Positions 4,199 through 64,000 of a DNA stretch of 64,000 bases are shown here, piece by piece; position 1 is the first letter of the stretch, and each line of letters starts with the position of its first letter. Source of the DNA: Pseudomonadota bacterium (GTDB lineage Bacteria; Pseudomonadota; Gammaproteobacteria; Burkholderiales; Burkholderiaceae_C). The translations under genes were made by a program, and so were the position numbers. Under the pieces are notes generated by a model. The model saw only the letters and a program-made list of their open reading frames with translations. It was not told the DNA's origin and did not search any database. The stretch spans positions 1-64,000 of the forward strand of contig JAJZVU010000007.1 of the NCBI GenBank assembly GCA_021845505.1. The letters run 5' to 3'.

Positions 4199-4211
4199 CC
4201 CCACGACTGTC

Positions 4212-6204: not shown

Positions 6205-6209
6205 AGGCC

Positions 6210-6767: not shown

Positions 6768-7082
6768 CGTCGGCCGCGCGGCCCGCCCGTACCGGCGCCC
6801 GAACAGCTGCGGCGCCCCGTGCGCATCGCGCTGCATGGCGAGCGTCGGGATGGCCCGCCCGGGATGCCGCGAATCGCCTACCTCGTCGTCGTCGATCCCG
6901 ACGAGAGCGAGCAGCGGCTCGCCTTGCTGCATCGCAATGTGCAGCAGTCCGGAACGGTTTACAACAACCTTGCAGCCGCGACCGCGATCGAAGGTCGGAT
7001 CGGGCGCGGCACACTGCCCAAGCGCGCCGGACTGGATCGCCGACCCGGTCGGAATCCGTGCGACAACCAGAGAGGGGCCATC
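6768..7082. other. Intergenic region upstream of the flavoprotein gene
   Basis: This 315-base gap has no recognisable gene. Open frames exist on both strands, but none resembles a known family and none has a convincing ribosome site. The final bases hold a purine-rich site (GAGAGGGG) just before the flavoprotein ATG at 7083. No clear -35/-10 pair was found. It is a plausible place for a promoter used by the ECF sigma factor encoded immediately upstream, but no motif shows this. Confidence 0.4.
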
Positions 7083-8486: not shown

Positions 8487-8619
8487 CGCGCCAGCAACCC
8501 TCGCCTGCTGATGCGCGCGAAGGACGCGCCGCGACCGGACTCGACGCGACGCGCACCCCTGGAACCCTGCGCCGCGACGGCGTGCGCCGCGGCGCGGTGA
8601 CGCTGTGCATAGGGGGCGC

Positions 8620-8642
8620 CCAGGGCCTTGCGCTGGCCCTGG
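8620..8642. terminator. GC-rich hairpin between convergent genes
   Basis: CCAGGGCC at 8620-8627 pairs perfectly with GGCCCTGG at 8635-8642 around a 7-base loop. It sits between the convergent flavoprotein and aioR stops. There is no T-run on either side, so intrinsic termination is uncertain. Confidence 0.4.
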
Positions 8643-8657
8643 AGACTCTCGGACGCC

Positions 8658-9998: not shown

Positions 9999-10057
9999 GG
10001 CTCGTCTCCTCGGGAATCTCCGGGCGTCTGCTCTGGTGGCCGACTGCCTTCAACGTA

Positions 10058-44765: not shown

Positions 44766-45743
44766 TCAGCCGCGGCCACCGGCCGCCACGCGCATGCCGA
44801 TGTTGCTCGCCGAGGTCGTCGGCGTGTTCGAGCTGCGCGCGGCGACGCGGTACCGATTGCAGTAGGAGTCGTGGCACAGGAAGGACCCGCCGCGCAGCGA
44901 GCGCCTGCCGGTGTCTTCGTCGCACAGCGGATCGACGCCGGATGTGCTCAGGTGATAGGAAGGGGAAAAGGCGTCGGCACACCACTCCCAGACGTTGCCG
45001 CACATGTCGTAAAGGCCGTAGCCGTTGGGCGCGAAGGATTTCGCGGGGATCGCGCCAGGCTTCCAGCCCCCGCGCGTGGAGCGCGGAAAGTCCCCCTGCC
45101 AGATGTGGCAGCGGGGCTTGCCCTCGGGTTCGAGTTCGTCTCCCCAGGGGTAGCGCCTGGCCTCCAGCCCTGCGCGCGCCGCGTACTCCCATTGCGCCTC
45201 GGTGGGCAGGTGGCAGCCGGCCCACGCGCAGAAGGCCTGGGCGTCCAGCCACGAGACGTGGACCACCGGATGCTGCGGACGATCGTGGACCTGCGAGCCG
45301 GGGCCTTCGGGCCGCTGCCAGCAGGCGCCTTCGACGTCGAGCCACCAGGGCAACCCGGGCGCGGTGCGCCGCATGCGCGCGCGGCGCTCCTCGGGAACCT
45401 GCAGGTAGAACACGAAGGAGCTGCCCAACTCCTCCGCGGTGGTCACGTAGCCGGTCGCGCGGACGAACTCCGCGAAGGCGCGATTGGTGACGGTGGCCTC
45501 GCCGATCGCGAAGTCGCCGACCACCACCCGCCGGCTGGGGCCCTCGCCGTCGACCGCGAAACCCTCGTCCACGTCATTGCCCATGGTGAAGGCGCCGCCG
45601 CGGATCGGCACCAGCCGGCCCAGCCCGGCACGCGGATCCGGCGCGCGCTGCGCGAGGCCGCCCGCCGCATCGGCGCCTTCCAGGCCTGGGCGCGCGGGGG
45701 TGCAGCAGGCGTGCGGCGCGGGCGCGCCCGGGGCCTCGGTCAC
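44766..45743 (-). CDS. Formylglycine-generating enzyme (sulfatase activator)
   Basis: SUMF1/FGE-fold protein of 325 residues that converts the active-site cysteine of sulfatases to formylglycine. The paired catalytic cysteines are C290 and C295 in FLCHDSYCNRYR, followed by AARSSNTPTTSASNIGMR, the diagnostic FGE segment. This separates it from SUMF-like proteins in other pathways. No signal peptide is seen, so it acts in the cytoplasm. The start is GTG at 45743, overlapping the sulfatase stop (GTGA), with GGAGGAGGG upstream. It should serve all three Cys-type sulfatases in the window. Confidence 0.92.
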   Translation of the reverse strand: MTEAPGAPAPHACCTPARPGLEGADAAGGLAQRAPDPRAGLGRLVPIRGGAFTMGNDVDEGFAVDGEGPSRRVVVGDFAIGEATVTNRAFAEFVRATGYVTTAEELGSSFVFYLQVPEERRARMRRTAPGLPWWLDVEGACWQRPEGPGSQVHDRPQHPVVHVSWLDAQAFCAWAGCHLPTEAQWEYAARAGLEARRYPWGDELEPEGKPRCHIWQGDFPRSTRGGWKPGAIPAKSFAPNGYGLYDMCGNVWEWCADAFSPSYHLSTSGVDPLCDEDTGRRSLRGGSFLCHDSYCNRYRVAARSSNTPTTSASNIGMRVAAGGRG

Positions 45744-47368
45744 TTGCCCTCCTCCTTCTCCCAGAAGGCCGGCTCCTGCTGCTCGGCCATCAGCGCCAGG
45801 ATCTTGTCGCGCGGGATCACCCCGCAGCGCAGGGCCCATTCGTCGTACTGCCGCGCCATGTCCTGCACGCGCTGCGGGTGCAGGCTCGCCAGGTCGTTCA
45901 GCTCCGTGCGGTCCTGCTCCATGTCGTAGAGCTCCCAGGCATGGGGATAGCGCCTGACCAGCTTCCACTTGCCGGCACGCACCGCGGCGTTGCCTTCGTG
46001 CTCCCAGAACATGGTCGGGCGCTGCCCGGCGGTGTCGTGCTCGAAGGTCTCGCGCAGCGAATGCCCTTCCAGCGGAGCCACGCGGCGGCCCTCGTAACGG
46101 GTCGGATAGGCGGTCTGGGTCACGTCGAGGATGGTCGCCATCACGTCGGGAAGGTAGCCGGGGCTGTGACGGATCTCGCCCCGGACGCGGATTCCGGCGG
46201 GCCAGTGCAGGATCAGCGGCGTCGAGATGCCCCCTTCGTGGATCCAGTGCTTGTAAAGCCGGAACGGGGCATTGGACAGGTTCGCCCAGGCCGTGCCGTA
46301 GCTCTGGTAGGTGTCCTCGGGCCCCGGCATGCGGCTCGGGTCGTTGCCGAAGTGCACCTGCGCGCCGTCGCGGGTGTGCGACTTGGCGATCTTCAGGTTG
46401 TGCACCAGTTCGTCCACCGTGACGCCCTCGGGAATGTCCTCGGCGCAGGCGCCGTTGTCCGACAGGAAGATGATCAGCGTGTCGTCGAGTTGGCCGGTCT
46501 GCTCCAGCGCGGCGAGGATGCGCCCGATGCCCTGGTCCATCCGATCGATCTGCGCGGCATACACCTCCATGCAGCGCAGTCGCCAGGCCTTGTGGTCGGC
46601 TGCGGTCCATTCGGGTTGCGTCGGGTCGCGCTCGCTCAGGCGCCAGATGTCGCGCAGCATGCCGCTGTCGACCAGGCGCTGCAGGCGCGCCTCGCGCAGG
46701 TCGTCCCAGCCCGCGTCGAAGCGCCCCTTGTACTTGGCGATGTCCTCCTCGGGGGCATGCAGCGGCCAGTGGGGCGCGGTGTAGGCCACGTACTGGAAGA
46801 ACGGCGCATCGGGATGCTCGGCGCGGTGCCGGTGGATGAACGCCACCGCCTCGTCGCTGATCGCGTCGGTGTAGTAGAAGTCCGCGTCCTGCGACGCCTC
46901 GTGCTCGATGTTCGTGTTGCCGCGGGTCAGGGTGTTCGGATCGTAGAAGCTCCCGGCTCCGATGATGGTGCCGAAGAACGCGTCGAAGCCGCGCTGCATC
47001 GGCCAGGCGTCGGTGGGTTCCTCCAGACTGCTCGCCACGTGCCATTTGCCGCTCATGTAGGCGCGGTAGCCGCTGGCCTTGAGCGCCTCGGGAATGGTCA
47101 CGCACCGCTGGTTCAGGTTGCCGGCATAGCCCTCGGGCCCGTAGTCGTAGGTCAGCACGCCGATGCCCGTCTGGTGGGGGTGCAGCCCGGTGAGCAGCGA
47201 TGCGCGCGACGGACTGCAGCGCGCGGTGTTGTAGAACTGCGAGTAGCGCAGCCCATGGGCGGCCAGGCGATCCAGGTTCGGCGTGTCGATCTCGCCGCCG
47301 TAGCAGCCGATATCCGAAAAGCCCATGTCGTCGTTCAGGATCAGGAGGATGTTCGGCTTGGCTGGCAT
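45740..47368 (-). CDS. Arylsulfatase-type sulfatase, cytoplasmic
   Basis: Type I sulfatase of 542 residues. The formylglycine signature is C51-S-P-S-R-A-S-L-L-T-G, calcium ligands lie in NDDMGFSDIG and FLSDNGACAED, and GKWHVA is the second conserved segment. It hydrolyses a sulfate ester; the alkyl or aryl part is unknown. There is no signal peptide, unlike most arylsulfatases, so the ester must be imported, presumably by the MFS protein encoded upstream in the operon. The FGE gene follows with a 4-base overlap, a direct substrate-activator pair. The operon promoter carries a GlpR-like element. Confidence 0.92.
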   Translation of the reverse strand: MPAKPNILLILNDDMGFSDIGCYGGEIDTPNLDRLAAHGLRYSQFYNTARCSPSRASLLTGLHPHQTGIGVLTYDYGPEGYAGNLNQRCVTIPEALKASGYRAYMSGKWHVASSLEEPTDAWPMQRGFDAFFGTIIGAGSFYDPNTLTRGNTNIEHEASQDADFYYTDAISDEAVAFIHRHRAEHPDAPFFQYVAYTAPHWPLHAPEEDIAKYKGRFDAGWDDLREARLQRLVDSGMLRDIWRLSERDPTQPEWTAADHKAWRLRCMEVYAAQIDRMDQGIGRILAALEQTGQLDDTLIIFLSDNGACAEDIPEGVTVDELVHNLKIAKSHTRDGAQVHFGNDPSRMPGPEDTYQSYGTAWANLSNAPFRLYKHWIHEGGISTPLILHWPAGIRVRGEIRHSPGYLPDVMATILDVTQTAYPTRYEGRRVAPLEGHSLRETFEHDTAGQRPTMFWEHEGNAAVRAGKWKLVRRYPHAWELYDMEQDRTELNDLASLHPQRVQDMARQYDEWALRCGVIPRDKILALMAEQQEPAFWEKEEGK

Positions 47369-48994: not shown

Positions 48995-50347
48995 ATGCAG
49001 TCCCTTCCCCCGGTGCCCCGGCCGTTGCCGCGCGGCGCTGTCGGGGGTGTCCACGGCCTGGTCCAACCGCGAGCCCTCTGCAGCGTGAGCCCACCGCCCG
49101 CCACCCCGCTCACCTCCCGCCCTGCCCGGTCCCGGGTCCTGCCATGGTTTGCCGCCTGGGGGCCGGGGCTGCTGGTCATGCTGGCCGACACCGATGCCGG
49201 CAACGTGGTCGCGGCCGCGCAAGCCGGCGCCCGCTGGAGCTACCGCCTGCTGCCCCTGCTGGTGTTGCTGATCCCGCTGCTCTACATGGTCCAGGAACTG
49301 GCCGTGCGGCTGGGCATCCACACCGGCCGCGGCCACGGCGAGCTGATCCGGGAGCGGCTCGGTGCCCGCTGGGCCTGGCTGGCGGCGGCGATGCTGGCGA
49401 TCGCCGCCATCGGATCGATGGTGACCGAATTCACCGCGGTGGCCGGAATCGGCGAAATGCACGGACTGTCGCGCAGCCTGTCGCTGCCGCTCGCCGCGAC
49501 GCTGCTGCTCGCGGTGGTGCTCACCGGGTCGTACCGTCGGATCGAACGCGCGGCGCTGGCGATCGGGCTGTTCGAATTGGCCTTCCTGGTCGTCGCCTGG
49601 CGCGCGCATCCCGATCTGGCCCGCGTGGCGAGCCAGGCCGCGCATCCGCCGCTGGACCAGCCGGGTTTCCTGTACTTGGGAGCAGGGTTGATCGGCGCGA
49701 CCTTCAATCCCTGGATGATCTTCTACCAGCAGTCGGCGGTGGCCGACAAGGGGCTGCTGCCCGACGATCACCGCGCTGCGCGTTGGGATACCGCGACCGG
49801 TGCCGTGCTGACCCAGCTGTTGACCGCCGCGGTGCTGGTGGCCGCCGCATCGACGCTGGGCGACCGCGGCGTCCCCGAGCGACTGCAAAGCGTCGGCGAA
49901 ATCGCCAGCGCGCTGTCGCCCGCGCTGGGCGAGCGAGCCGGCCGGCTGATTTTCAGCGTGGGCGTGCTCGGGGCCGCGCTGGTCGCGGCGATCGTCGCGT
50001 CGCTGGCGCTGACCTGGGGACTCGGCGAGGTGGCCGGCTTGCGGCGTTCGCTGGAGCACCGTGCGCTGCGGGCGCCGTGGTTCTCCGGCCTGTATGCGCT
50101 GTGCGTGACCGGCAGCGCGGCGCTGGTCTGGGCCGTGCCCGACCTGATCCGGCTGAACCTCGACATGCAGGTCCTCAACGCCTTCATGCTGCCGTTGGCG
50201 TTGGGCATCCTGGTCGTGCTGGCGCTCAAGGCCCTGCCGGAAGGCCAGCGACTGCGCGGCGGCTATCTGTGGCTGTGGCTCGCCGTCGCCGGCGCCACCT
50301 GCGCGTTCGCCTGGCTCGGCGCAGGCTCGGCCGGGCTTGCGCCGTAG
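48995..50347 (+). CDS. NRAMP-family metal transporter with variant ion-site motifs
   Basis: Inner-membrane transporter of about 450 residues with eleven hydrophobic segments. The first-helix motif reads LADTDAGNVVAAAQAGA in place of the manganese/iron NRAMP signature DPGN. The sixth-helix metal-binding MPH motif is replaced by TFNPWMIFYQQSA. The variant motifs point to a different ion, perhaps magnesium as in NRAMP-related Mg transporters, or to a non-metal substrate. The start is uncertain: ATG 48995 is used, but GTG 49085 is possible because the first 30-40 residues are low-complexity Pro/Arg. A -10-like TACACT lies at 48902-48907. Confidence 0.78.
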   Translation: MQSLPPVPRPLPRGAVGGVHGLVQPRALCSVSPPPATPLTSRPARSRVLPWFAAWGPGLLVMLADTDAGNVVAAAQAGARWSYRLLPLLVLLIPLLYMVQELAVRLGIHTGRGHGELIRERLGARWAWLAAAMLAIAAIGSMVTEFTAVAGIGEMHGLSRSLSLPLAATLLLAVVLTGSYRRIERAALAIGLFELAFLVVAWRAHPDLARVASQAAHPPLDQPGFLYLGAGLIGATFNPWMIFYQQSAVADKGLLPDDHRAARWDTATGAVLTQLLTAAVLVAAASTLGDRGVPERLQSVGEIASALSPALGERAGRLIFSVGVLGAALVAAIVASLALTWGLGEVAGLRRSLEHRALRAPWFSGLYALCVTGSAALVWAVPDLIRLNLDMQVLNAFMLPLALGILVVLALKALPEGQRLRGGYLWLWLAVAGATCAFAWLGAGSAGLAP

Positions 50348-50468
50348 CCGCCGCGCAGCCCGCTCGCGCGCTCGCGACGCGCCGCCACGCGGGAGGGCTG
50401 GAACTTTCGACGCCGGGAGCGGTCAAACCCTGGGTCAGCGCCATGTCCCCTCGCCACCGGCGGACCCG

Positions 50469-51257
50469 ATGCCCGAACCCCGAAGCCCCGACCGCAAGCC
50501 GGCCGCCGCGCAGGCCGCCGCGCAGGCCGCCGCGCAGGCCACCGCGCAGGCCACCGCGCAGGCCACCGCGCAGGCCACCGCGCAGGCCACCGCGCAGGCC
50601 ACCGCGCCACGCTCGGAATACGCCAGCTACATGCGCACCGACGAGCTGCTGGCGCTGCAGCGCAGCGACACGCAACTGCTGCACCGCGACGAGCGCCTGT
50701 TCCAGTGCGTCCACCAGGCCACCGAGCTGTGGCTCAAGCAGGCGAACTTCGAGATCGGGCATGCGACCTCGCTGATCGAGGCCTCTCAACTGGTCGGCGC
50801 CGCGCGGATCCTCGCCCGCGCCAGCGACTGCATCGACTTCATCACCCGGCAGCTCGACATCCTGACGCGCATGGGCCCGGTCGGCTACCGGGCGCTGCGC
50901 CCGGCGCTCGGCCAGGGTTCGGGGGTCCAGTCCCCCGGCTGGCAGGGCCTGCGCGCCGCGGCGCCGCGGCTTCACGCCGCATTCACCGCGCGCCGCCAGG
51001 CCGAGCGCATGAGCCTCGCCGAGGTCTTCGGCTGCGCCGGCGACGCGCCGCTGCAGCTGCTTGCCGAAGCGCTGCTCGACCTCGATGGCAAGGTGTCGCT
51101 GTGGCGGACGAGGCACCTGCAGGTGGTGGTTCGCACCCTCGGCGGCCAGGGCGTCGGCACCCGGGGAATGCCTGTGCACGCGCTGGCCCAGCTGCTCGAG
51201 CAGCGTCTGTTCGGCGAGCTCTGGGAGGCACGCGCCGCCGCGCCCGGCTCCGCTTGA
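50469..51257 (+). CDS. Tryptophan 2,3-dioxygenase-family protein with Ala/Gln repeat arm
   Basis: Haem-dependent dioxygenase-fold protein of 262 residues. The core starts YASYMRTDELLALQ and continues LFQCVHQATELWLKQANFEI, matching the tryptophan dioxygenase segment with the distal histidine. RASDCIDFITRQLDILTRM, then GQGSGVQSPGW, corresponds to the substrate-binding region, and WRTRHLQVVVRTLG holds the expected haem-ligand histidine. The GTGG(T/S) loop is changed to GTRGM, so tryptophan specificity is not certain. Residues 14-46 are AAAQ/ATAQ repeats encoded by a 12-bp tandem repeat. No kynureninase or formamidase is nearby. Confidence 0.8.
   Translation: MPEPRSPDRKPAAAQAAAQAAAQATAQATAQATAQATAQATAQATAPRSEYASYMRTDELLALQRSDTQLLHRDERLFQCVHQATELWLKQANFEIGHATSLIEASQLVGAARILARASDCIDFITRQLDILTRMGPVGYRALRPALGQGSGVQSPGWQGLRAAAPRLHAAFTARRQAERMSLAEVFGCAGDAPLQLLAEALLDLDGKVSLWRTRHLQVVVRTLGGQGVGTRGMPVHALAQLLEQRLFGELWEARAAAPGSA
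50505..50600. repeat. 12-bp tandem repeat, 8 units, in frame
   Basis: Three copies of GCCGCGCAGGCC (50505-50540) are followed by five of ACCGCGCAGGCC (50541-50600). The unit is a multiple of three and encodes AAQA/ATAQ-type repeats, so copy-number change would lengthen the N-terminal arm of the dioxygenase-family protein without a frameshift. Confidence 0.95.
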
Positions 51258-53336: not shown

Positions 53337-53789
53337 TCAGGTCTTCGGCGGCTGGCGGCGGCCGCGCAGCATGCCGAAGATCAGGTAGCCCGACACCAGC
53401 ACGAACAGCGCGGCCAGCGCGGCCTGGCCATAGCCCGCGAGCCCGGCCGGATTCTTCCACTGATGCCGCAGCACCCGGTTGGCAAGCGCCTGCACCTGGG
53501 CGGAGGGCGCGAAACCCAGCGTGGGGTCCAGGCGGCGCGCGCGCTCGAGTTCGTCCTCGGCCAGCGGCCATTTGCCCTCCGCGGCGAGCAGCCGCGCGTC
53601 CACGTAATGAGCCCGCGCCGAGCCGGGATCGGCGGCCAGCACCTGGGCCATCGCATGGTCGGCCTGCACCAGGTGCCCGGCGCGCATCAGCGCGGACGCC
53701 TGCTCCAGCGTGGCCGCGCGCGCGGCGCACGGCGCCAGCCCGAGGGACAGGATCAGCGACAGCAGCAGCCTGGGTGGGACCTTCGACAT
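53337..53789 (-). CDS. Small exported protein with TPR-like helices and C-terminal anchor
   Basis: A 150-residue protein of unknown function. A signal or membrane helix (residues 8-26) precedes two TPR-like helix pairs (about 28-100; AATLEQASALMRAGHLVQADHAMAQVLAADP given as a region). A C-terminal transmembrane helix follows (about 120-142) with a short basic tail. The ATG at 53789 is preferred over the GTG at 53801. The arrangement suggests a periplasmic protein-binding domain held to the inner membrane. No partner is evident. Confidence 0.65.
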   Translation of the reverse strand: MSKVPPRLLLSLILSLGLAPCAARAATLEQASALMRAGHLVQADHAMAQVLAADPGSARAHYVDARLLAAEGKWPLAEDELERARRLDPTLGFAPSAQVQALANRVLRHQWKNPAGLAGYGQAALAALFVLVSGYLIFGMLRGRRQPPKT

Positions 53790-53856
53790 GGATCGGAACA
53801 CGGCCTGGGAGGAACGATGGCGCCCACCTTACTACACAAAGCGCGCGTCCCGGTCT

Positions 53857-54738
53857 TCAGGACAACGCGGCGTCCCGGGCCGCCAGCCCGCCGATGGCCG
53901 ACCAGTCGAGCTGCTCGCCGCCCTGGGCCAGCAGCGCGAGGAAGCGGTCGCGCAGCAGGCTGGCCAGCGGCATCGGAACCCGCAGGTCCTCGGCAGCGTC
54001 CAGCGCCAGCCCGATATCCTTCAGCCCCAGCGCGGCCGCGAAGCCCGCCGGCTCGAATCGGCGATCGACGATCAGCCCGCCGTAGTTGCGATAGACCGGC
54101 GCGTCGAACAGGGTCGAGGTCAACAGCTGCAGGTAGGCGGCGCGGTCGACCCCGGCCTTGCCCACCAGCGCCATCGCCTCGCCCAGCGACTCGAGCACCG
54201 AGGCGATGAGGAAATTGCCGCCGAGCTTGACCACGTTCGCCGCATCGGGTCGGTCGCCGAAGCGGAAGGTGCGCTGGCCGACGGCCTCGAACAGCGGCGC
54301 GCATTCGTCCAGCGCATCGGCCGCTCCGGCCGCGACCACGAACAGCCTGGCCGCGGCTGCGGCGTCGGGTCGCCCGAACACCGGCGCCGACACGTAGCGC
54401 TGGCCGGCCTCGGCGTGGGATCGCGCGAGTCGCCGCGACAGATCCACGCTGATGGTGCTCATCGAGACATGGATCGCGCCGCCGCCCAGGCTGGCGAGCA
54501 CGCCGCCGTCGCCGCAGGCCACGGCCTGCAGCGCGTTGTCGTCGGCCAGCATGGTGATCACCACCTGGGCACCGCTGCAGGCCTGCGCGACGCTGGCGGC
54601 GACCCGGGCTCCCCGGGCCAGCAGCGGCTGCGCCTTGTCGGCGCTGCGGTTGTACACGGTGAGTTCGTGGCCCGCGGCCAGCAGGTTGGCCGCCATGCCG
54701 ATGCCCATGCGGCCCAATCCGATGAATCCGACTTTCAT
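53857..54738 (-). CDS. Beta-hydroxyacid dehydrogenase-family oxidoreductase
   Basis: NAD(P)-dependent dehydrogenase of 293 residues of the 3-hydroxyisobutyrate/6-phosphogluconate-like family. The Rossmann motif is GFIGLGRMGIGMA (residues 4-16), the substrate loop reads SAPVFGRP in place of DAPVSGG, and the catalytic lysine lies in NVVKLGGNF. The changed substrate loop is common in the glyoxylate-reductase/imine-reductase-like subgroup. It is the last gene of the leftward sulfatase/ComA-like run and would oxidise or reduce a hydroxy acid or aldehyde produced there. Confidence 0.85.
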   Translation of the reverse strand: MKVGFIGLGRMGIGMAANLLAAGHELTVYNRSADKAQPLLARGARVAASVAQACSGAQVVITMLADDNALQAVACGDGGVLASLGGGAIHVSMSTISVDLSRRLARSHAEAGQRYVSAPVFGRPDAAAAARLFVVAAGAADALDECAPLFEAVGQRTFRFGDRPDAANVVKLGGNFLIASVLESLGEAMALVGKAGVDRAAYLQLLTSTLFDAPVYRNYGGLIVDRRFEPAGFAAALGLKDIGLALDAAEDLRVPMPLASLLRDRFLALLAQGGEQLDWSAIGGLAARDAALS

Positions 54739-54826
54739 GCTGAACGTCCTGTGGGTTGTCGATTGTCGAGTGGGGTGGTCCCGCGGTCGGCCGGGGGGCC
54801 GGTCGTGGTCCCGGCCTGGCGGCGTC

Positions 54827-55861
54827 TCACGCAGGCAGGCCGGGCCCGGCGCCCGCGCCGGTGGAGTCGATCGCGGCGGCGATCGCGGTCATGTCCTCGG
54901 AGTCGAGCTCCAGGCTGGCGGCATCGATCCAGCCGTCGACCTGGCGCGCGCTGCGTGCGCCGACGATGGCCCCGCTGACCCCCGGCCAGGCCAGCGTCCA
55001 GGCGACCGCGACCGCCGCGACGCTGGTGCGATGGCGTTGCGCCACCGGCTGCAGCGCCGCGGCCAGCCGCAGGTTGCGCGCCAGCCGCTCGCCGGTGAAC
55101 TCGGCGTCGCGCGAGCGCCAGTCGTCCTTCGCGAGCGCCTGGGCGCGCTCACCGGAGAAGCTGCCGCTGAGCAGGCCCGCCTGCATCGGGCTGTAGACGA
55201 TGACCCCGGTCGAGTGCGCCGCGCACCATGGCAGCTCGCGCGCCGCGACCTCGCGCCGGATGGCCGAGAACGGCGGCTGCAAGGTGTCGACATGGCCCAG
55301 CCTCTCGGCCGCCTGCAGTTGATCCGCGTCGTGGTTGGAAAGCCCCACCGCGCGCACCTTGCCCTCGCGCTGGAGGTCGAGCAGGGTCTGCCAATACGCC
55401 TCCAGCGGGGTGCCGTCGGTCGCCGGCCAGTGCATCTGGTACAGGTCGATGCGCTCGACGCCCAGGCGCTGGAGCGAAGCCTCGACCTCGCGGCGCAGGC
55501 TCGCCGGCGCGCCGACGCGGCGGGGCATGGCCTTGCGCTCCCGCGCATCCCAGACCAGGCCGCACTTGGTGAACACGTAGGGCCTGCGCTCGGCGGGAAT
55601 TCCGGCCAGCGCGCGGCGCACGATGTCCTCCGAGTGCCCGAGGCCGTAGACCGCCGCGGTGTCGATCCAGTTCACTCCGCGCTCGACGGCATGCCGGATC
55701 GCGGCGATCGATTCGGCGTCGTCCTGGGCGCCCCAGCCCACCGCCCAATCGCCTCCGCCGACCGCCCAGGAGCCGAAGCCGACGCGGGTGATCCGCATGT
55801 CGGTGGTGCCCAGCCGGCGCAGCGGCAGGGGCGAGGACGGGGAAGTCGCGGTTGCGGACAT
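54827..55861 (-). CDS. Aldo/keto reductase
   Basis: NADPH-dependent TIM-barrel oxidoreductase of 344 residues. The catalytic tetrad is visible: aspartate and tyrosine in DTAAVYGLG, lysine in FTKCGL and histidine in YQMHWP. The N-terminal LRRLGTTDMRITRVGFGSWAVGG is typical of the YajO/Tas-like subgroup. It lies between the dehydrogenase gene and a 185-bp palindromic element; a second aldo/keto reductase gene lies beyond it. Both belong to the same leftward run as the sulfatases, so an aldehyde or ketose from the desulfated substrate is a likely target. Confidence 0.87.
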   Translation of the reverse strand: MSATATSPSSPLPLRRLGTTDMRITRVGFGSWAVGGGDWAVGWGAQDDAESIAAIRHAVERGVNWIDTAAVYGLGHSEDIVRRALAGIPAERRPYVFTKCGLVWDARERKAMPRRVGAPASLRREVEASLQRLGVERIDLYQMHWPATDGTPLEAYWQTLLDLQREGKVRAVGLSNHDADQLQAAERLGHVDTLQPPFSAIRREVAARELPWCAAHSTGVIVYSPMQAGLLSGSFSGERAQALAKDDWRSRDAEFTGERLARNLRLAAALQPVAQRHRTSVAAVAVAWTLAWPGVSGAIVGARSARQVDGWIDAASLELDSEDMTAIAAAIDSTGAGAGPGLPA

Positions 55862-55866
55862 GGCCT

Positions 55867-56051
55867 AGGGATGCTGTTCAGAACGCACGCGGCGCGCGTT
55901 CGAGGTCCAAACGGGATGCATGGCCTGCCTGCGCGGCGCAGCCTGTGCCGGTGGCACAGGCAAGCCGACAGGTGGGGCAGGCGCCCGTTTGGCCCCGAAC
56001 CCTTCGGGGCAGTGGCTGGCGCGCACCACGTGAGTTCTGAACAGCATCCCT
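55867..56051. mobile_element. 185-bp palindromic, MITE-like or REPIN-like element
   Basis: The ends are perfect inverted repeats GGGATGCTGTTCAGAAC (55868-55884) and its complement (56034-56050). The similarity continues inward, 14 of 17 in the next bases and then a related CCAAACGGG segment. In the middle, GCCTGTGCC (55941-55949) and GGCACAGGC (55953-55961) form a perfect 9-bp hairpin with a 3-base loop. No coding region is present and no target duplication is obvious. Single-stranded, it would fold along nearly its whole length, as small non-autonomous elements do. Confidence 0.65.
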
Positions 56052-56147
56052 GGCTCCCTGAAAGGGCCATTCTGGCGCAAACGCGCCGATTCCGCCAACG
56101 CATCGCAGCGCTGCGGCCGGGCGCGCCAGGCCCGGTCGCGGCAGGGT

Positions 56148-57218
<1,071 letters not shown>

Positions 57219-57253
57219 CTACAGCGGGCTCGTGGCAGCCGACCCGGCGACGA

Positions 57254-58105
57254 TCAGGCGTCGGTCGAGCGCGCGGCCGCGCAGGCCGCTTGCGCGCCGT
57301 CGGCGGCGAAGCCGGCCAGGCGATAGGCACCTTGCGGATGCGAGGTGTCCCCGGCGAAGCCGCGCCGCACCAGTTCGGTGAGGTAGATTTCGTCCCACTC
57401 GATGTTCGCCAGGTTCACGTCGGTGCCAAGCTCCTTGACCAGCCAGGCGGTGATCTTGTGCTTGTAGTCGCGGGTGACTCCTGGCAGCACGACCACCGGC
57501 AGTTCATAGATCAGCTTGTGCTGGGGAAAGCTGCGCGCGAGCTCGGCGATGAGGGCCGAGCGGACCCGGTTGCCGGAGAACAGTTCCGCGGCCTCGAGGA
57601 ACACCCAGTCGGCGCCGGCGTCCAGGCAGTTCGCCACGTCTCGCACAAGGGCGGCATCGTCCATGGCGCCCTCCTTGCGGCCGACCTCGCCGTAGACGGT
57701 GAGCCCGCGGCTGCTCGCATGCCGGATGGCCGCGGCCTTGTCGCGCGCACTGAGGTCGAGCAGGTTGTCCGACACCTCGATGCCGGAGAAGCCGGCGGCG
57801 ATCGCCTCGTCGACATAGCGCTCGTACCTGCCCAGCTTGAGCGCCAGTTCGGCGAACAGCCCGCCGGGTGACGTGGAGATGGAATGCGCCTCGTAATGCG
57901 CCAGCTTGTCCCGCAGGACCGGCTCGGGCAGCAGGCGGGCGATTCCCGCGGCGACCTTCGCGACGTCGATGTACGCCCCGGCGCTGTCGACGGTGTCCTG
58001 CTGGCGCGCCAGCCCCATGCCCCAGTCGATCATCATCGACAAGCCCCTGCTGCGGGGCTTGGACTGGCGCTCGGGAACAGGGAACTGCGGGAAGGCGGTT
58101 TGCAC
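57254..58105 (-). CDS. ComA-like (phosphosulfolactate synthase family) TIM-barrel protein, diverged active site
   Basis: Protein of 283 residues. Family membership is clear from SPGGLFAELALKLGRYERYV, IEVSDNLLDLS, YGEVGRKEG, LDAGADWVFLE and VNLANIEWDEIYLTELVRRGFAGDT (given as a region), which follow archaeal ComA in order. ComA adds sulfite to phosphoenolpyruvate. Several ComA residues differ: DKG becomes DWG (residues 27-29), FGWGTS becomes VAAGIA (51-56), SDG becomes SDN and EGRE becomes EAAE. It may act on another substrate. The start is GTG 58105 with GAGG upstream. No ComB, ComC or phosphatase gene is adjacent. Confidence 0.85.
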   Translation of the reverse strand: MQTAFPQFPVPERQSKPRSRGLSMMIDWGMGLARQQDTVDSAGAYIDVAKVAAGIARLLPEPVLRDKLAHYEAHSISTSPGGLFAELALKLGRYERYVDEAIAAGFSGIEVSDNLLDLSARDKAAAIRHASSRGLTVYGEVGRKEGAMDDAALVRDVANCLDAGADWVFLEAAELFSGNRVRSALIAELARSFPQHKLIYELPVVVLPGVTRDYKHKITAWLVKELGTDVNLANIEWDEIYLTELVRRGFAGDTSHPQGAYRLAGFAADGAQAACAAARSTDA

Positions 58106-58137
58106 GATCGGACCTCGGGGAAGAGACGGCGCAGCGC

Positions 58138-59460
58138 TCAGTCGGGCGCTCCCGGCGCTCGATGGGGGTACCGGGCACTGCTTTCGTTGAAATCGCGCAC
58201 CATGCGCAGCATCGGCCCCAGCACCCAGGTGTTGAAGACCAGCACGTCGGTTTCCTCCTTGGGGTCGCGGGTCACGTTGAACAGGTAGGGAGACTCCAGC
58301 TTGCCCTTGCCCTCGTTGACCTCGGGCTCCCAGTACAGGTGCAGCTTCCAGTCCCGCCACTTCACCGCGCGCAGCTCGGTCTTGATGTGGAACAGGAAGC
58401 CCTCGCGCGCGGACTGGTCGCGCCGCCCGAGGAGAAAGTCGGTCTGGTCGACGCCGTCGATCGGCCGGTCGCACGGGATCCGCGCGCCGGCCACGCGCGC
58501 CAGCGTGGTGAACAGGTCGGTGACATGCACCATTTCGTTGCTCACGCGCCCGCCGGCGATGCGGCCCGGCCAGCGGGCGATGAAGGGCACGCGCAGGCTG
58601 CCCTCCATCGCCGTGTGGTAGGTGCCGCGCCACGGCCCCGCGGTGCCGCGGTAGGGGGCGCGGAATTCGGGACCGTTGTCGCTGCAGAAGATCACCAGGG
58701 TGTCCTCGGCGATCCCCAGGCGATCGACTTCGTCGACCACCTGCCCGGTGCGATGGTCGAGTTCGACCATCGAATCGGCGAAATCGCCGTGGCCGGTACG
58801 GCCGGCGAAGTCCCTGTGCGGCAGTGTGGGGAAATGCAGGTGGACCAGCGGCAGGTAGAGGAAGAACGGCCTGCCGGCCGCGTGCTGGCGCCGCATGAAG
58901 GCGACCGCGCGCTCCACCAGCTCCTCGTCGATGCAGCGCCTGGCCGCCAGGTCGTACTCCTTCACGTTGCGCGAAGGCTGTCCGGCCTGGCCCTCCATGA
59001 TGTAGGGGATTTCGGCGACCGAGGGGTCGAATCCGACCGACGACGTGAACTGGGTTTCGTCGGTGGTGCGCGGTATGCCGTACCAGGAGTCGAAGCCGCG
59101 ATCGCTGGGGTAGCGTCCCGGGATGTCGCCGAGGTGCCATTTGCCGTAGTGCGCGCTGGCATAGCCCCGTTCCGCGAGCAGCTGCGCCAGCGTGGTTTCG
59201 TCGCGAGGCAGGCCTTGCGGCAACCCCGGGGGAACCGACTGCAGGCAACCGGTGCGGATCGGGTGGCGCCCGGACATCAGCGCGGAGCGCGTGGGCACGC
59301 AGTCGCTCTCGACATTGAAATTCTGCAGCAGCAGGCCTTCGCGAGCCAGCCGGTCGATGCGCGGCGTGGGCGCTCCGCGCAGCGCGCCGCCGCCGTAGCA
59401 ACCGGGTTCGCCCCAGCCCAGGTTGTCGGCGACGATGAGAACGATGTTCGGGGAGGTCAT
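58138..59460 (-). CDS. Sulfatase, cytoplasmic
   Basis: Type I sulfatase of 440 residues. The formylglycine signature is C54-V-P-T-R-S-A-L-M-S-G, with calcium-binding VADNLGWGE and FCSDNGPE and the second motif YGKWHLGDI. It is of the arylsulfatase A type rather than the choline-sulfatase type. No signal peptide is seen, so the enzyme works on an imported ester. It lies between the other sulfatase gene and the ComA-like gene with gaps of 56 and 32 bases. Modification by the FGE at 44766-45743 is expected. Confidence 0.92.
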   Translation of the reverse strand: MTSPNIVLIVADNLGWGEPGCYGGGALRGAPTPRIDRLAREGLLLQNFNVESDCVPTRSALMSGRHPIRTGCLQSVPPGLPQGLPRDETTLAQLLAERGYASAHYGKWHLGDIPGRYPSDRGFDSWYGIPRTTDETQFTSSVGFDPSVAEIPYIMEGQAGQPSRNVKEYDLAARRCIDEELVERAVAFMRRQHAAGRPFFLYLPLVHLHFPTLPHRDFAGRTGHGDFADSMVELDHRTGQVVDEVDRLGIAEDTLVIFCSDNGPEFRAPYRGTAGPWRGTYHTAMEGSLRVPFIARWPGRIAGGRVSNEMVHVTDLFTTLARVAGARIPCDRPIDGVDQTDFLLGRRDQSAREGFLFHIKTELRAVKWRDWKLHLYWEPEVNEGKGKLESPYLFNVTRDPKEETDVLVFNTWVLGPMLRMVRDFNESSARYPHRAPGAPD

Positions 59461-59516
59461 GGCGTCCGGTTGTGCGCCTGGCAGCGGCTCGTGATGCGTC
59501 GGTGCGCCGGAGGCGC

Positions 59517-60962
59517 TCAGGCGGAGCCCGGCGCCGGGGTCGCGCCGCTGGCGCCCATCCCTGCGGCGACCTCGACGCCCCCGAGTCGCTGGATCATCGC
59601 TCGCTGATCCTGCTTGGCCAGCGCGTCGATCGCCTCGGGGTCGCAGATCCGCCGCAACTCGAGCTCCATGTCCTGCAGCACCTGGCGATGGGCCGGGTCG
59701 GCCGCCAGGTCGACCTGTTCCTCGGGGTCGGCCTGCAGGTCGAACAGCTCGGGCGCGAAGCGCACGTAATGGTGCAGCTTCCAGCGCCCCTTGCGCACCA
59801 TGAAGCCCGCCGTGTTGCTCCCGGCCGCGTGGTATTCGCTGAACACCACGCGCTCGAGGTCGGTGGGCGACGCGGCCACCGAGAACAGCGACCTCCCGGG
59901 GCGTTGCGCCATGTGCGGCGCCGGGTCGATGCCCACGCCTTCGAGGATGGTGGGATACAGGTCGGTGAGTTCGACCGGGGTCTCGCACACGCCGGGAGTC
60001 AGCCCGGGCGCGGCGACGATCAAGGGCACGCGCACGCTTTCCTGGTAGAGCGTGGACTTGCCCCACAGTCCGCGGGCTCCCAGGTTGTCTCCGTGGTCCG
60101 AGGTGTAGATCACCGTGGTGTCTTGCTCCAGGCCACTGTCGCGCAAGGCGTCGAGCATGCGCCCGACGTTGTGGTCGACGAAGCTGCACAGTGCGTAATA
60201 GGCGCGAAAGGCGTCCAGGCGCTCCTCGGCGCTGCGGAACTTCTGCTCGTTGCGCTGGAAGTCGGCGTAGGCCTGCACCCAGGGATGCAGCACGTGCCCC
60301 TGCGCGGGGTGCAGCTTGGGCTCGGGCACCTGCCGGCCGGCGTACAGGCGATAGAACTCCTCGGGGGCGATCAGCGGAAAGTGCGGCGCGACCAAGCCGA
60401 CGTACAGCACGAAGGGCCGTCCGGGCTGGCTCGCCGCCTGCCGCAGCCACCGCACCGCGCGCTCGGTGATCTCGCGGTCGTATGCGGTGTAGGCCGACTC
60501 GCCGGCACCGATGCGCTCGCCCAGCATGCGCTTGCCCGCGTCGGAGCGCGCGAGATAGGGGTCGCGGATCGACGCCCAGACCATGCCGTGGCCGCCGACC
60601 ACATGCATGGGGATGTGCTCGGCGTCGAATCCCGCCGGGTCCTCGGCATCGCGGTAGTGCAGCTTGCCGATGCTCTCCACGCGGACCGCGTGGCTCTGCA
60701 GCACGTGCCCCCAGCCCTGCGGTCGCCCCGCGTAGGGCATGGCGTTGTCCCAGTGGCGCGTCTGGTGCACCCGCAACCCGGTGGCGAAGGCCGCGCGCGC
60801 CGGCACGCAGATGGGACTCGGGGTGTAGGCGCTGGCAAAGCGCCGGCCGCGGGCCGCCAGCTCGTCCAGCCGCGGCGTGCGCACGAAGGCATGGCCGGAG
60901 CAACCCATGTAGCGGGGGTCGTGCTCGTCGGACATGATCACCAGGAGATTGCGCGAAGCCAT
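59517..60962 (-). CDS. Sulfatase (choline-sulfatase/phosphonate-monoester-hydrolase-like), cytoplasmic
   Basis: Type I sulfatase of 481 residues. The formylglycine site is C52-V-P-A-R-A-A-F-A-T-G; metal ligands are in IMSDEHDPRYMG and YTSDHGDN. The N-terminal MSDEH pattern and the C-terminal extension match the choline-sulfatase/phosphonate monoester hydrolase branch, so it could also cleave phospho- or sulfonate monoesters. There is no signal peptide. It follows the permease gene after 38 bases and precedes a second, dissimilar sulfatase, suggesting two different ester bonds or substrates in one pathway. Confidence 0.9.
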   Translation of the reverse strand: MASRNLLVIMSDEHDPRYMGCSGHAFVRTPRLDELAARGRRFASAYTPSPICVPARAAFATGLRVHQTRHWDNAMPYAGRPQGWGHVLQSHAVRVESIGKLHYRDAEDPAGFDAEHIPMHVVGGHGMVWASIRDPYLARSDAGKRMLGERIGAGESAYTAYDREITERAVRWLRQAASQPGRPFVLYVGLVAPHFPLIAPEEFYRLYAGRQVPEPKLHPAQGHVLHPWVQAYADFQRNEQKFRSAEERLDAFRAYYALCSFVDHNVGRMLDALRDSGLEQDTTVIYTSDHGDNLGARGLWGKSTLYQESVRVPLIVAAPGLTPGVCETPVELTDLYPTILEGVGIDPAPHMAQRPGRSLFSVAASPTDLERVVFSEYHAAGSNTAGFMVRKGRWKLHHYVRFAPELFDLQADPEEQVDLAADPAHRQVLQDMELELRRICDPEAIDALAKQDQRAMIQRLGGVEVAAGMGASGATPAPGSA

Positions 60963-61000
60963 GCTGGAGGACCTGGAACGACGATGGGCCGAACGGGCGC

Positions 61001-62350
61001 TCAGCGCGTGGCGGCGATCGCCGGCGACTGCGCCGCGTTCGCGATGCGTCCGCTCAGCGGTTTGGCAAGCAGGCCGGACGCCAGTCCGAGCAGCGCGATC
61101 AGCGACAGGTACAGCCCCGGCGCAGCGCGGTCGCCGGTGGCATGGATCAACGCGGTGACCAGCAGCGGGGTGATCGCGGTGAACACCACGGTCGCCATGT
61201 TCAGCGACAGGGCCACGCCGCTGAAGCGCAGGCGCGTGGGAAACAGGTCGGCCAGCAGATAGCTGTAGGTCGCGCTGACCAGCACGTTGGTCATGCCCAG
61301 CATCAGATAGGCCTGCATCGGGCTGATGGCGTGCGAGACCAGTCCCTTGTACACCGGGTAGCCGCCGAGCAGCATCAGCAGCGATCCCAGCGCGTGCAGC
61401 CGACGCGGCGCGATGCGCTGGCCCAGCCAGCCGACCAGCAGGATGGCCGGCGCCATCGCCGCCAGCGCCGCGGCCTGCGCCAGGCCGACATCGTGGACCG
61501 GGTCGTGCAGGACCCTGGTCAGGTAGGCCGGCAGCAGCACGAACAGCATGCTGTTGCCCACGTTGAGGATACTGGAGACCCCGATCCCGGCCAGCACCGG
61601 CAGCGGCATTTCGGCCAGCACCTGGCGCAGCGGGCGGCGCGACACCTGGCCCTTCAGCGCGACGTATTCCTGCGATTCCTCCAGCGAGGTGCGCAGCCAG
61701 TACGACAGCAAGCCCGTGAGCCCGCCGAGCACGAAGGCGATGCGCCAGCCGTAGGCCAGTACCGCCTTGGCAGGCAGATAGGTGTGCACGGCCAGGCTGA
61801 CCAGGGTGGCGAGGACCACGCCGGAATGCAGGCAGAACACCACCATGCCGATCACCAGGCTGGCCTTGCCGGGGATTTCCTCGACGACGTAGGTGATCGA
61901 GCAGGCGAGTTCGCCGGCCAGGAAGAAGCCCTGGGTCAAGCGCAGCAGGACCAGCAGCAGCGGTGCCAGGATGCCGATGCTGGCGTAGGTGGGAAGCAGG
62001 CCGACCGCGATGGTGCAGCCCGACATGACCATCACCGACAGCAGGAACATCGGGCGCCGCCCCAGGCGATCGCCCAGGCTGCCCAGCACGCCTGCGCCGA
62101 GCGGGCGCGACACATACCCCAGCGCGAACACCGCGAAGGCGCTCAGCAGCGCGACAAAGGGATCGCTCTTGGGGAAGAACTGGGTACCGATCTGCAGCGC
62201 GAACACGCCGTAGATGATGAAGTCGTAGATCTCCAGCCCGCCACCCAGGCTGGCCAGCACGACCACCTTCCAGGCACTGCGTCGAGCCGGCACGGCGGCC
62301 GGCGCGATGCCGGTGGTGGCGGTGGCGGTGGCGGTGCTCGCATCGGGCAT
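61001..62350 (-). CDS. MFS permease, metabolite:H+ symporter type
   Basis: Inner-membrane symporter of 449 residues with twelve hydrophobic segments. GGGLEIYDFIIYGVFA in the first helix and SRPLGAGVLGSLGDRLGRRP in loop 2/3 are typical of the MHS family (alpha-ketoglutarate, proline/betaine, citrate and shikimate permeases). It is the first gene of the leftward sulfatase/ComA-like run, divergent from a LysR gene, and so is the likely importer of the substrate, probably a small charged organic acid or zwitterion. A short ACCGCC microsatellite at the start encodes Thr-Ala repeats. Confidence 0.87.
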   Translation of the reverse strand: MPDASTATATATTGIAPAAVPARRSAWKVVVLASLGGGLEIYDFIIYGVFALQIGTQFFPKSDPFVALLSAFAVFALGYVSRPLGAGVLGSLGDRLGRRPMFLLSVMVMSGCTIAVGLLPTYASIGILAPLLLVLLRLTQGFFLAGELACSITYVVEEIPGKASLVIGMVVFCLHSGVVLATLVSLAVHTYLPAKAVLAYGWRIAFVLGGLTGLLSYWLRTSLEESQEYVALKGQVSRRPLRQVLAEMPLPVLAGIGVSSILNVGNSMLFVLLPAYLTRVLHDPVHDVGLAQAAALAAMAPAILLVGWLGQRIAPRRLHALGSLLMLLGGYPVYKGLVSHAISPMQAYLMLGMTNVLVSATYSYLLADLFPTRLRFSGVALSLNMATVVFTAITPLLVTALIHATGDRAAPGLYLSLIALLGLASGLLAKPLSGRIANAAQSPAIAATR

Positions 62351-62446
62351 GTCGTGTCTCCTGCGGGGTGTCGCGAACCGTGGGGCGGTTGTCGCGTGGC
62401 CTTCCACCCCTCGGGCGGGGGCGTGCGGTGGCTTCATGTTGCTGAA

Positions 62447-62506
62447 GGCGCATATAAACGTCAAATGACGGTTTCTTTGTTCGACATCACATTTTTCTTA
62501 TGCGCC
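62447..62506. promoter_or_regulatory. Divergent LysR-type control region
   Basis: GGCGCATA (62447-62454) and TATGCGCC (62499-62506) form a perfect inverted pair 44 bases apart. Between them the dyad CGTCA-AA-TGACG (62459-62470) is the best candidate for the LysR recognition site. The region covers the starts of both the permease and lysR transcripts, the usual layout for LysR control. Confidence 0.55.
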
Positions 62507-62510
62507 TACC

Positions 62511-63497
62511 ATGGACACCGGCGACGTGCCTTCGATCGAGCCCACCATGGACCCCAACGACCGGTTCTTCCAGCGCGGACTCAAGCTCAACCACCTGCGC
62601 CTGCTGGTGCTGTTCGCCGGCCTGGGACAGATCCGGCTGGTCGCCCAGCACCTGCATGTGACCCAGCCCGCGGTGTCCAGGCAGCTTGCCGAACTCGAAG
62701 CCGGCGTGGGCGCGCAGGTGCTGCAGCGGGTGGGCAACCGGCTTCAGTTCACTCCCGTGGGCCAGGCCCTGCTGCGCCGGGCGCGCGAGGTGCTGCTGCA
62801 GCTCGAACAGGCTCGCCATGACATCCACGCGTTGAGCCGGGGCATTTCCGGGACCATCACGGTGGGCGGGGGCAACACCGTGCTGCCGGTGATCGGCGCG
62901 GAGTTCGCGATGGAGCTCAAGCGCCTGGCGCCCTCGGTGGAACTGCGCTTCCAGCAGGGCACCAGCGACGCGCTGTTCCCCCGGCTGGCCTCCGGTGAAC
63001 TGGACCTGGTGTTCAGCCGCGTCCCGCCACCGGCCACACCCACCTCGGAGCTGGTCGGGCAGGCGCTGTTCACCGATCCGGTGGTGGTGGTGTGCGGGCG
63101 CGACCACCCGCTGGCCGCGCGCCGCGCGCTGGAGCCGGCGGACCTGCGCGGCATGGCGTGGGTGCTGCCGCCGCCGGGCTCGCCGACCTTTCTCGCGCTG
63201 CGCGCCTGGATGGACGAACACGGCCTGGACTTTCCCGAGGGTTGCGTGCAGTCCACGGTGCTGGGCCTGAACCAGCAACTGCTGCTGCGCTACCCCTTCC
63301 TCGGGCTGCTGCCGCGCTCGCTGGCCGAACAGGCGAGCCAGTCCGGGCTCCTGCATGTCCTGCACCTGCCCGGCGCGAGCCTGCTTGCGCAAGTCTGGTG
63401 GTACCGCAACGCCAGCAGCGCGAACCCGGTCGTCGACCTGGCATTGGAATGCGCGCAGGCCTTGCAGGCGGCCGCCGTCGGCCGCGAGGCCGGCTGA
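62511..63497 (+). CDS. LysR-family transcriptional regulator
   Basis: Regulator of up to 328 residues. The helix-turn-helix is IRLVAQHLHVTQPAVSRQLAELE (about residues 41-63; given as a region), followed by the LysR ligand domain beginning GTITVGGGNTVLPVIGAEF. It belongs to the CbbR/GbpR-like group judging from the N-terminal LKLNHLRLLVLFAGLGQIR. The ATG at 62511 is used; an ATG at 62547 is possible. It is divergent from the permease-sulfatase-ComA-like run and most likely controls it, with a pathway intermediate as inducer. Confidence 0.88.
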   Translation: MDTGDVPSIEPTMDPNDRFFQRGLKLNHLRLLVLFAGLGQIRLVAQHLHVTQPAVSRQLAELEAGVGAQVLQRVGNRLQFTPVGQALLRRAREVLLQLEQARHDIHALSRGISGTITVGGGNTVLPVIGAEFAMELKRLAPSVELRFQQGTSDALFPRLASGELDLVFSRVPPPATPTSELVGQALFTDPVVVVCGRDHPLAARRALEPADLRGMAWVLPPPGSPTFLALRAWMDEHGLDFPEGCVQSTVLGLNQQLLLRYPFLGLLPRSLAEQASQSGLLHVLHLPGASLLAQVWWYRNASSANPVVDLALECAQALQAAAVGREAG

Positions 63498-63515
63498 GCC
63501 GCGCCGCGCTCAGCC
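63492..63515. terminator. Inverted repeat between convergent lysR and yaeQ
   Basis: GGCTGAGC (63492-63499) pairs perfectly with GCTCAGCC (63508-63515) around 8 bases. It overlaps both convergent stops. There is no T-run. Confidence 0.45.
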
Positions 63516-64000
63516 CTCGGGGCGCTGCAAGGTCTGCAGCGCCACCTCGACCGCCGCCGCCTCGCTGCTGACGGTGATCGCGCCGTCCTGCACCAGGCAC
63601 TGCAGCCGCATGCTGCGCCCGGCCAGCGCCGCCAGCGCCTGCGCGGTGCGCGCCGGCAGCCGCAGCACGCAGAGGTTGCGCAGGCGGGCGAGCCGGCCCT
63701 CGACGGACTTCCACCAGATGTCGCAGCTGGCGGAGTGGCAGACCGCGATCACCTGCTCGGCGCGGCCGCAGGCCTTGCGCAGCCGGGCCTCGTCGGGCTG
63801 GCCGATGTCGATCCACAGCTTGATCGCACCGGTCAGGTCCTTCACCCAGATCTCCGGCTCGTCGACGTCGAACAGGCCCCTGGCCAGCGCGATGCCCTGC
63901 TGCGCGTGCAGCGCATACATCAGCACCCGCACCATCATCCGCTCGTCGGTCTCCGACGGATGGCGGGCGATGGTCAGCGCGAGGTCCTCGTAGCGATGGC
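63510..64000 (-). CDS. yaeQ: YaeQ-family protein, 5' end outside the window
   Basis: Partial gene; about 163 codons are present and the N-terminus lies beyond base 64000. The reading frame continues open upstream of an internal ATG at 63938, through HRYEDLALTIARHPSETDER, which matches the YaeQ family and shows that ATG is not the start. Downstream are the family segments GLFDVDEPEIWVKDLTGAI, WIDIGQPDEARLRKACGRA and the C-terminal VQDGAITVSS. YaeQ is a PD-(D/E)xK-nuclease-like protein; a role in transcription antitermination was once proposed and is unproven. It converges on lysR. Confidence 0.88.
   Translation of the reverse strand, partial: HRYEDLALTIARHPSETDERMMVRVLMYALHAQQGIALARGLFDVDEPEIWVKDLTGAIKLWIDIGQPDEARLRKACGRAEQVIAVCHSASCDIWWKSVEGRLARLRNLCVLRLPARTAQALAALAGRSMRLQCLVQDGAITVSSEAAAVEVALQTLQRPEG

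Follow-up and report, generated by a model that had tools for sequence, protein, structure and literature searches.

The window analysed here is a stretch of 64,000 nucleotides (positions 1 to 64,000, forward strand, of contig JAJZVU010000007.1) from a 3.70-Mb draft assembly in 84 contigs (GCA_021845505.1) of a Pseudomonadota bacterium of the Burkholderiales, whose genome contains 6 PF00884 (sulfatase) genes. It holds a cluster in which two sulfatase genes lie next to a gene for a ComA-like TIM-barrel protein. An earlier note on this DNA had described seven genes running leftwards from a divergent LysR regulator; all were found at the coordinates given here, and Pfam and NCBIfam profile matches confirmed their families. 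The LysR-type regulator (lysR, 62511..63497, plus strand, 328 residues, PF03466 and PF00126) indeed stands divergent from the first of them. The other genes are on the minus strand: mhs (61001..62350), encoding an MHS-type metabolite/H+ symporter of 449 residues (PF07690/PF00083, with TIGR00883 as best match); sulf2 (59517..60962), a formylglycine-type sulfatase of 481 residues with the motif CVPAR (PF00884, 147.5 bits); sulf1 (58138..59460), a formylglycine-type sulfatase of the arylsulfatase A group, 440 residues long, with CVPTR (PF00884, 173 bits); the comA-like gene (57254..58105; 283 residues, PF02679, 186.6 bits over residues 1-243); and the aldo/keto reductase gene akr1 (56148..57146, PF00248), the last one with linkage support. 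Judging from the sequence, the comA-like gene most likely starts with the GTG at 58105, because the full Pfam length is then covered. A second aldo/keto reductase gene, akr2 (54827..55861, PF00248), and hdh, for a beta-hydroxyacid-type dehydrogenase (53857..54738, PF03446/PF14833), are adjacent only. Every NCBIfam match of hdh was under its cut-off (e.g. sulfolactaldehyde reductase NF012005, 134 vs 348 bits), and a sulfolactaldehyde reading was given little weight on this ground. The intergenic gaps are 38 bp (mhs-sulf2), 56 bp (sulf2-sulf1), 32 bp (sulf1-comA) and 107 bp (comA-akr1), then 286 bp (akr1-akr2) and 88 bp (akr2-hdh). A consensus scan of 53700-63600 gave no promoter or terminator. 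By alignment, the gap between lysR and mhs contains a weak promoter-like element on the minus strand (TTGACG-17-CAACAT, 62436..62464) and a stretch (TCAYTTGMC..T.AT.TG) that is similar in Thiomonas sp. FB-6 and Paraburkholderia.

The unit supported by comparison with relatives is smaller than the seven-gene run, and consists of the divergent lysR and mhs-sulf2-sulf1-comA-akr1. In the nearest relative (G024), identity is 96.7-99.5% across these six genes. This genome has a second comA-akr1 end (L030), where the gene after akr1 is convergent to it and encodes a mechanosensitive-channel domain; akr1 adjoins comA in both copies. A relative of akr1 (69%) was also found about 850 bp from comA in Bordetella genomosp. 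12, on the opposite strand and with an SDR gene between. We considered that the pathway might comprise all seven genes, in which case akr2 and hdh would oxidise the product left after desulfation. These two genes do come next on the same strand and, in genome G598 (L127), an aldo/keto reductase 30% identical to akr2 adjoins sulf1, which counts against a boundary after five genes. However, the 286-bp gap past akr1 and the channel gene of L030 argue against such an extension, and tblastn found neither akr2 nor hdh beside comA in 24 loci (about 21 places, as three pairs overlap; the contigs of L029/L037 and L031/L042 end too early to decide). The same was true of the 12 loci related most closely to the window (clade A, see below), in which the only akr2 matches were akr1 itself. 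Because of the channel gene after akr1 and of the absence of akr2 and hdh beside comA, we took the five genes and lysR as the unit, and we consider the seven-gene pathway improbable. Oxidation as the last step, which the earlier note had also proposed, was not supported either: the linked redox gene is a single aldo/keto reductase, and the genes found nearby in other genomes encode an FAD-linked oxidase, an aminotransferase or a 2-hydroxyacid dehydrogenase.

Both sulfatases keep the CxPxR motif (C54VPTR in sulf1, C52VPAR in sulf2) and pass the PF00884 cut-off. Both start at the first core strand (MTSPNIVLIVADN, MASRNLLVIMSDE), as do their relatives except for about 15 extra residues in L035, and no signal peptide was seen by eye in either, in agreement with the cytoplasmic location proposed before. 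The closest PDB structures to sulf1 are 7aj0 and arylsulfatase A, with which it shares the GKWH and SDNGPE stretches and the sulfatase motif region; it is 67-84% identical to 8 relatives. Among 30 homologues (window included), Cys54 of CxPxR, D12, K107, H109 and H209 are each conserved in 29 and D261 in all 30. Sulf1 differs from the arylsulfatase A/7aj0 group in having no visible signal peptide and in having, in 30/30 homologues, a Tyr (Tyr281) where arylsulfatase A and 7aj0 have an aligned Lys. Because of this replacement, action of sulf1 on sulfate esters is likely but not certain. The structure model of sulf1 was poor (pLDDT, the predicted local distance difference test score, of 50) and too weak for a fold search.

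The best solved relative of sulf2 is choline sulfatase (6fny); sulf2 also matches the phosphonate monoester hydrolases 2w8s and 4upk. These matches and Tyr281 would fit a module that is not about sulfate, in which the presumed sulfatases (especially sulf1) would cleave a different ester, be it a phosphonate monoester, a phosphodiester or some other kind. We regard this as unlikely, though it carries some weight, since the sulfatase residues of sulf1 listed above are kept, sulf2 retains a Lys aligned with K309 of choline sulfatase, a sulfate-contacting residue in the C-terminal half, and the nearest solved structures are sulfatases. In an alignment read by eye, K302 and E376 of sulf2 correspond to K309 and E386 of choline sulfatase, residues whose roles are dealt with in passages of PMC9063841 and PMC5870055.

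The closeness of sulf2 to choline sulfatase could also mean that the operon serves the import and hydrolysis of choline-O-sulfate. Betaine carriers occur among MHS proteins, and mhs matches ProP with 194 bits, under the cut-off; its best match, TIGR00883 (271 bits), is likewise under the subfamily cut-off of 443 bits. Although sulf2 is, like BetC, a formylglycine sulfatase, it does not reach the cut-off of the choline sulfatase family TIGR03417 (276.5 vs 433.45 bits), it is without the GW-x13-WYHN choline clamp (GKRM is aligned with WYHN), and its neighbouring genes are different. As this explanation would moreover leave sulf1 and comA without a role, we think it very unlikely. Another formylglycine sulfatase, 30% identical to choline sulfatase, is described in passages of PMC11500405 on the acesulfame genes of Shinella; as here, there is a cluster that encodes a LysR regulator and another enzyme, with the sulfatase upstream, but that other enzyme is an amidase, and the passages mention no ComA-like protein.

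The genome has two matches to the formylglycine-generating enzyme (FGE, PF03781). One of them is inside the window, outside the operon (44784..45614, minus strand, 257.2 bits), and likely activates the sulfatases. In Arthrobacter mangrovi (L045), an FGE gene directly follows sulf2 and an MFS gene, and comA is upstream, past a LysR gene. Beside the FGE gene of the window there is a third sulfatase gene (44784-47368 for the two, about 6 kb from the cluster), with the motif CSPSR and no signal peptide by eye.

The ComA-like protein has a PF02679 domain and a ComA barrel. Its structure model (pLDDT 87) gave 1qwg as best fold match, then 9cm1 and 1u83, with other barrels far behind. With ComA of Methanocaldococcus jannaschii (1qwg) and of Bacillus (1u83) it shares the fold, the full-length Pfam domain, the FVK-type Lys, ExP, NLANI and the Lys that follows EVG (K144), which we take to be catalytic in ComA. 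It differs from them by an identity of 25-30% in the fold match, by AAELF in place of the RES(G/A) stretch (RESG in the same comparison), by a longer loop after ExP, by its sulfatase neighbours and by a score of 143.3 bits with the arch_ComA equivalog, whose cut-off is 280. Because the score is under this cut-off and the RES motif is missing, the argument of the earlier note that ComA handles C-S bonds cannot be transferred to this protein. In a motif alignment of 61 ComA-family rows, RES was present in 11 (RESG in 10, RESA in L021), and in none of the 24 sulfatase-linked rows. At its place, clades A and A' have EAxEL, with a longer loop after ELP, and clade B has EQ(S/C)(D/E). The sulfatase-linked rows retain the FVK-type Lys, E-x-S, the Lys after E(V/F/A)Gx and the Glu of ExP/EAD.

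The domain and the fold would suit a true phosphosulfolactate synthase, which would join sulfite to phosphoenolpyruvate for sulfolactate or coenzyme M synthesis. The low equivalog score and the missing RES motif speak against this, as does the absence of a ComB- or ComC-like gene among the Pfam matches of the operon (no genome-wide search was made), and two other genomes of the genus do contain a ComA-family protein with GRESG. We therefore find a phosphosulfolactate synthase very improbable here. In those two genomes (L032, L033), the cluster around the GRESG protein resembles, by eye, epoxide/coenzyme M genes. Plasmids yielded 37 matches to the ComA-like protein, all below 60% identity, and the 20 listed were all named phosphosulfolactate synthase; this name is doubtful for the whole group because the three plasmid relatives that we checked are without RES. 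On an Arthrobacter plasmid (L136, 7974-12118), a 34% ComA-like gene is followed by trxB and trxA and, one gene further on, by a UGSC family (seleno)protein gene; on a Bradyrhizobium plasmid (L137, 5358-8786), the ComA-like gene directly follows MmgE/PrpD and PrpF genes, an unsaturated-carboxylate setting.

Close ComA-like proteins were found in 3 of 28 genomes of the genus (window included; 100, 98 and 76% identity) and distant ones (32-33%) in 2 more, so the cluster is accessory in the genus. A scan of one genome per species in 84,980 species, which detects close relatives only, gave 16 loci. Thirteen rows, including the window, form clade A; the others were a fragment (L049) and three distant proteins. 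Gene calls from an in-house GC-position caller were used for clustering and orientation only. Conservation in relatives, one of the points on which the earlier note had said that its proposal could fall, was confirmed: in clade A, sulf1 is present in 10 rows and sulf2 in 8, and some sulfatase lies at most 2.7 kb from the ComA-like gene in 12 of the 13. In mhs, sulf2, sulf1 and comA, the third codon position is where the window and Thiomonas FB-6 differ most often. The regulator has relatives in Thiomonas sp. FB-6 (71%, divergent from mhs-sulf2) and in Paraburkholderia (51%, divergent from sulf2-mhs). In Paraburkholderia L046, lysR-sulf2-mhs and comA/sulf1 are separate, and because the two submodules stand apart there, the operon of the window looks like their fusion. 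The exception among the 13 rows is L040 (Pseudacidovorax NFM-22, 3916-10807), where a TctC remnant lies by comA and a low-GC open reading frame of 1641 residues occupies the place at which the sister strain RU35E has lysR and sulf1; its comA has NLAKVE in place of NLANLE. This locus may reflect decay following the loss of the sulfatase.

The importer also varies. Within the stretches examined, 5 of the clade A rows have an MHS protein, 7 have TctC, and none has both; the MHS protein of Arthrobacter is just 31% alike to that of the window. This exchange of importers favours a small carboxylate as substrate and supports the small-acid import proposed earlier. The other neighbours of the pair include an aminotransferase (L038, L041, L046), a D-2-hydroxyacid dehydrogenase (L041), an FAD-linked oxidase (L045, L046), a DHDPS-family protein and an ABC importer. 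Near sulf1 or clade B loci we found genes for an enolase-superfamily protein, a class II aldolase, a FAD_binding_2 protein, an amidohydrolase, a dienelactone hydrolase, an acyl-CoA dehydrogenase and a nitronate monooxygenase. Because they vary, we read these neighbours as adapters around a constant core.

The pairing of sulfatase and ComA-like protein exceeds chance. Among 399 genomes drawn once from the order, 32 had ComA-like proteins (E <= 1e-5), 34 had sulf1-type sulfatases (E <= 1e-110) and 23 had both (expected 2.7, p 5e-22). When sulf1 was required to score at least 770 bits, 29 genomes remained, including all 23 shared ones (expected 2.3, p 9e-25). By genus (159), 14 had ComA-like proteins and 13 sulf1, with 8 shared (p 4e-7), or 10 and 7 at the higher sulf1 threshold (p 8e-7). 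These p values overstate the surprise because kinship was left uncorrected, the genomes being non-independent and many of them coming from few genera. Loci were assigned for 30 of 36 ComA-like and 30 of 35 sulf1 matches. A sulfatase was present within about 1.5 kb in 14 of the 30 ComA-like loci (window included), compared with a chance by place alone of about 1% (own arithmetic, from 6 PF00884 genes in 3.70 Mb). Twelve other genomes of the class gave 15 loci, some of them with short flanks, and none of these had a sulfatase that close. In a tree of 58 ComA rows, the sulfatase label needs 5 changes (starred branches force 4), vs 18.6-18.7 in shuffles; the linked rows are 12/13 in clade A, 4/6 in A' and 8/17 in B. 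There may have been a single early gain of sulfatase linkage and several losses. The deep order of the tree is unsure because of several long branches. The tree left out repeat copies, the fragments L010, L022, L024-L026, L049 and L052, and both copies of G485 (L067, L113), which belong to clade B and have sulf1 27 bp from the ComA-like gene.

TctC genes are plentiful around the pair (54 in 23 loci), which raises the question of whether the pair simply tends to lie in general catabolic islands rich in TctC, without a joint pathway. Co-occurrence persists without linkage, however: where a clade B ComA-like gene has no adjoining sulfatase, 8 of 9 such genomes have sulf1 elsewhere. Furthermore, there was no TctC match in the stretch from the window or in L037, L042, L045 and L046, and we judge this explanation to have little probability. 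In L034, L114 and L118 (clade B), the ComA-like gene sits, by eye, in a conserved housekeeping-like run (glnE-ilvE-waaF-...-yheT-algC), and sulf1 is on another contig.

Besides Tyr281, the poor model of sulf1 and the kinship among the genomes, several observations weigh against a catabolic operon for a sulfated carboxylate, the explanation preferred below. Eleven of the 34 sulf1 genomes (6 of the 29 with strong sulf1) have no ComA-like match, 9 of the 32 ComA-like genomes have no sulf1, and in 34 of the 58 rows of the tree no sulfatase is near. ComA-like genes also occur with PrpD/PrpF, amidohydrolase or TrxAB/UGSC genes, and for the three more distant plasmid relatives, the gene tables (incomplete) list no sulfatase in the surrounding 8 kb or so. 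A Cupriavidus pinatubonensis plasmid (L139, 1434-10410) has a 55% relative of sulf1 at the end of a series of genes for methylamine dehydrogenase, aldehyde dehydrogenase and CoA ester lyase, with no annotated ComA neighbour; two further plasmids with sulf1 matches are unannotated in the stretch concerned. Finally, RES is also missing in 23 unlinked tree rows and in the 3 plasmid relatives, so that its change marks a group wider than the sulfatase-linked one.

The recurrent pairing and the changed motif nevertheless point to an uncharacterised breakdown route for a small sulfated acid. We propose, with about equal weight for and against, that the genes form an operon of modular make-up for the catabolism of a small sulfated carboxylate. 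From the divergent layout, LysR would control the operon. The MHS protein, replaced in relatives by TctC-receptor systems, would take the intact anion across the inner membrane; sulf2 and sulf1, activated by the FGE encoded in the window, would cleave the sulfate ester in the cytoplasm, as their family and CxPxR motifs suggest. The ComA-like enzyme would then act on the freed carboxylate by way of a metal-stabilised enolate, making or breaking a bond beta to the carboxylate, and akr1 would act on a carbonyl product. We infer these reactions, and their order, from the genes. Enolate chemistry would be expected because the protein retains the barrel as well as the Lys and Glu at their conserved positions, and the substrate of the ComA-like enzyme is presumably not phosphosulfolactate, since other residues stand in place of the RES stretch. 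The enzymes found near the pair in other genomes favour a 2-hydroxy- or 2-oxoacid skeleton. More tentatively, and with less confidence than in the operon itself, clades A, A' and B could represent a new class of enolate-forming lyases in organosulfur catabolism. Together with cytoplasmic sulfatases, these would process carboxylates that carry, besides a sulfate ester, another scissile bond in the beta position. An aromatic C6-C3 sulfate such as tyrosine sulfate, suggested by the aminotransferase, 2-hydroxyacid dehydrogenase and DHDPS-family neighbours, stays a guess; its bacterial catabolism did not appear among the literature matches listed.

The conservation of the sulfatase/ComA-like pairing is new here. 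The earlier note knew of no described pathway with this gene set. Searches of open-licence papers found none with the comA-sulfatase pair, which is weak evidence of absence, and of the open-licence papers matching sulfatase, tripartite tricarboxylate transporter and gene cluster, none deals with this module by its title. The module is real and recurrent. Of the earlier idea, the core survives; the limits of the unit and the final steps had to be given up. Sulfatase linkage, together with the exchange of one carboxylate importer for another, restricts the likely substrates to small sulfated acids, a range in which the function is testable with a short substrate panel. Elsewhere in the window, the open reading frame at 50337-51257 encodes a long tandem repeat of the AAQATAQATAQ type close to its N-terminus.

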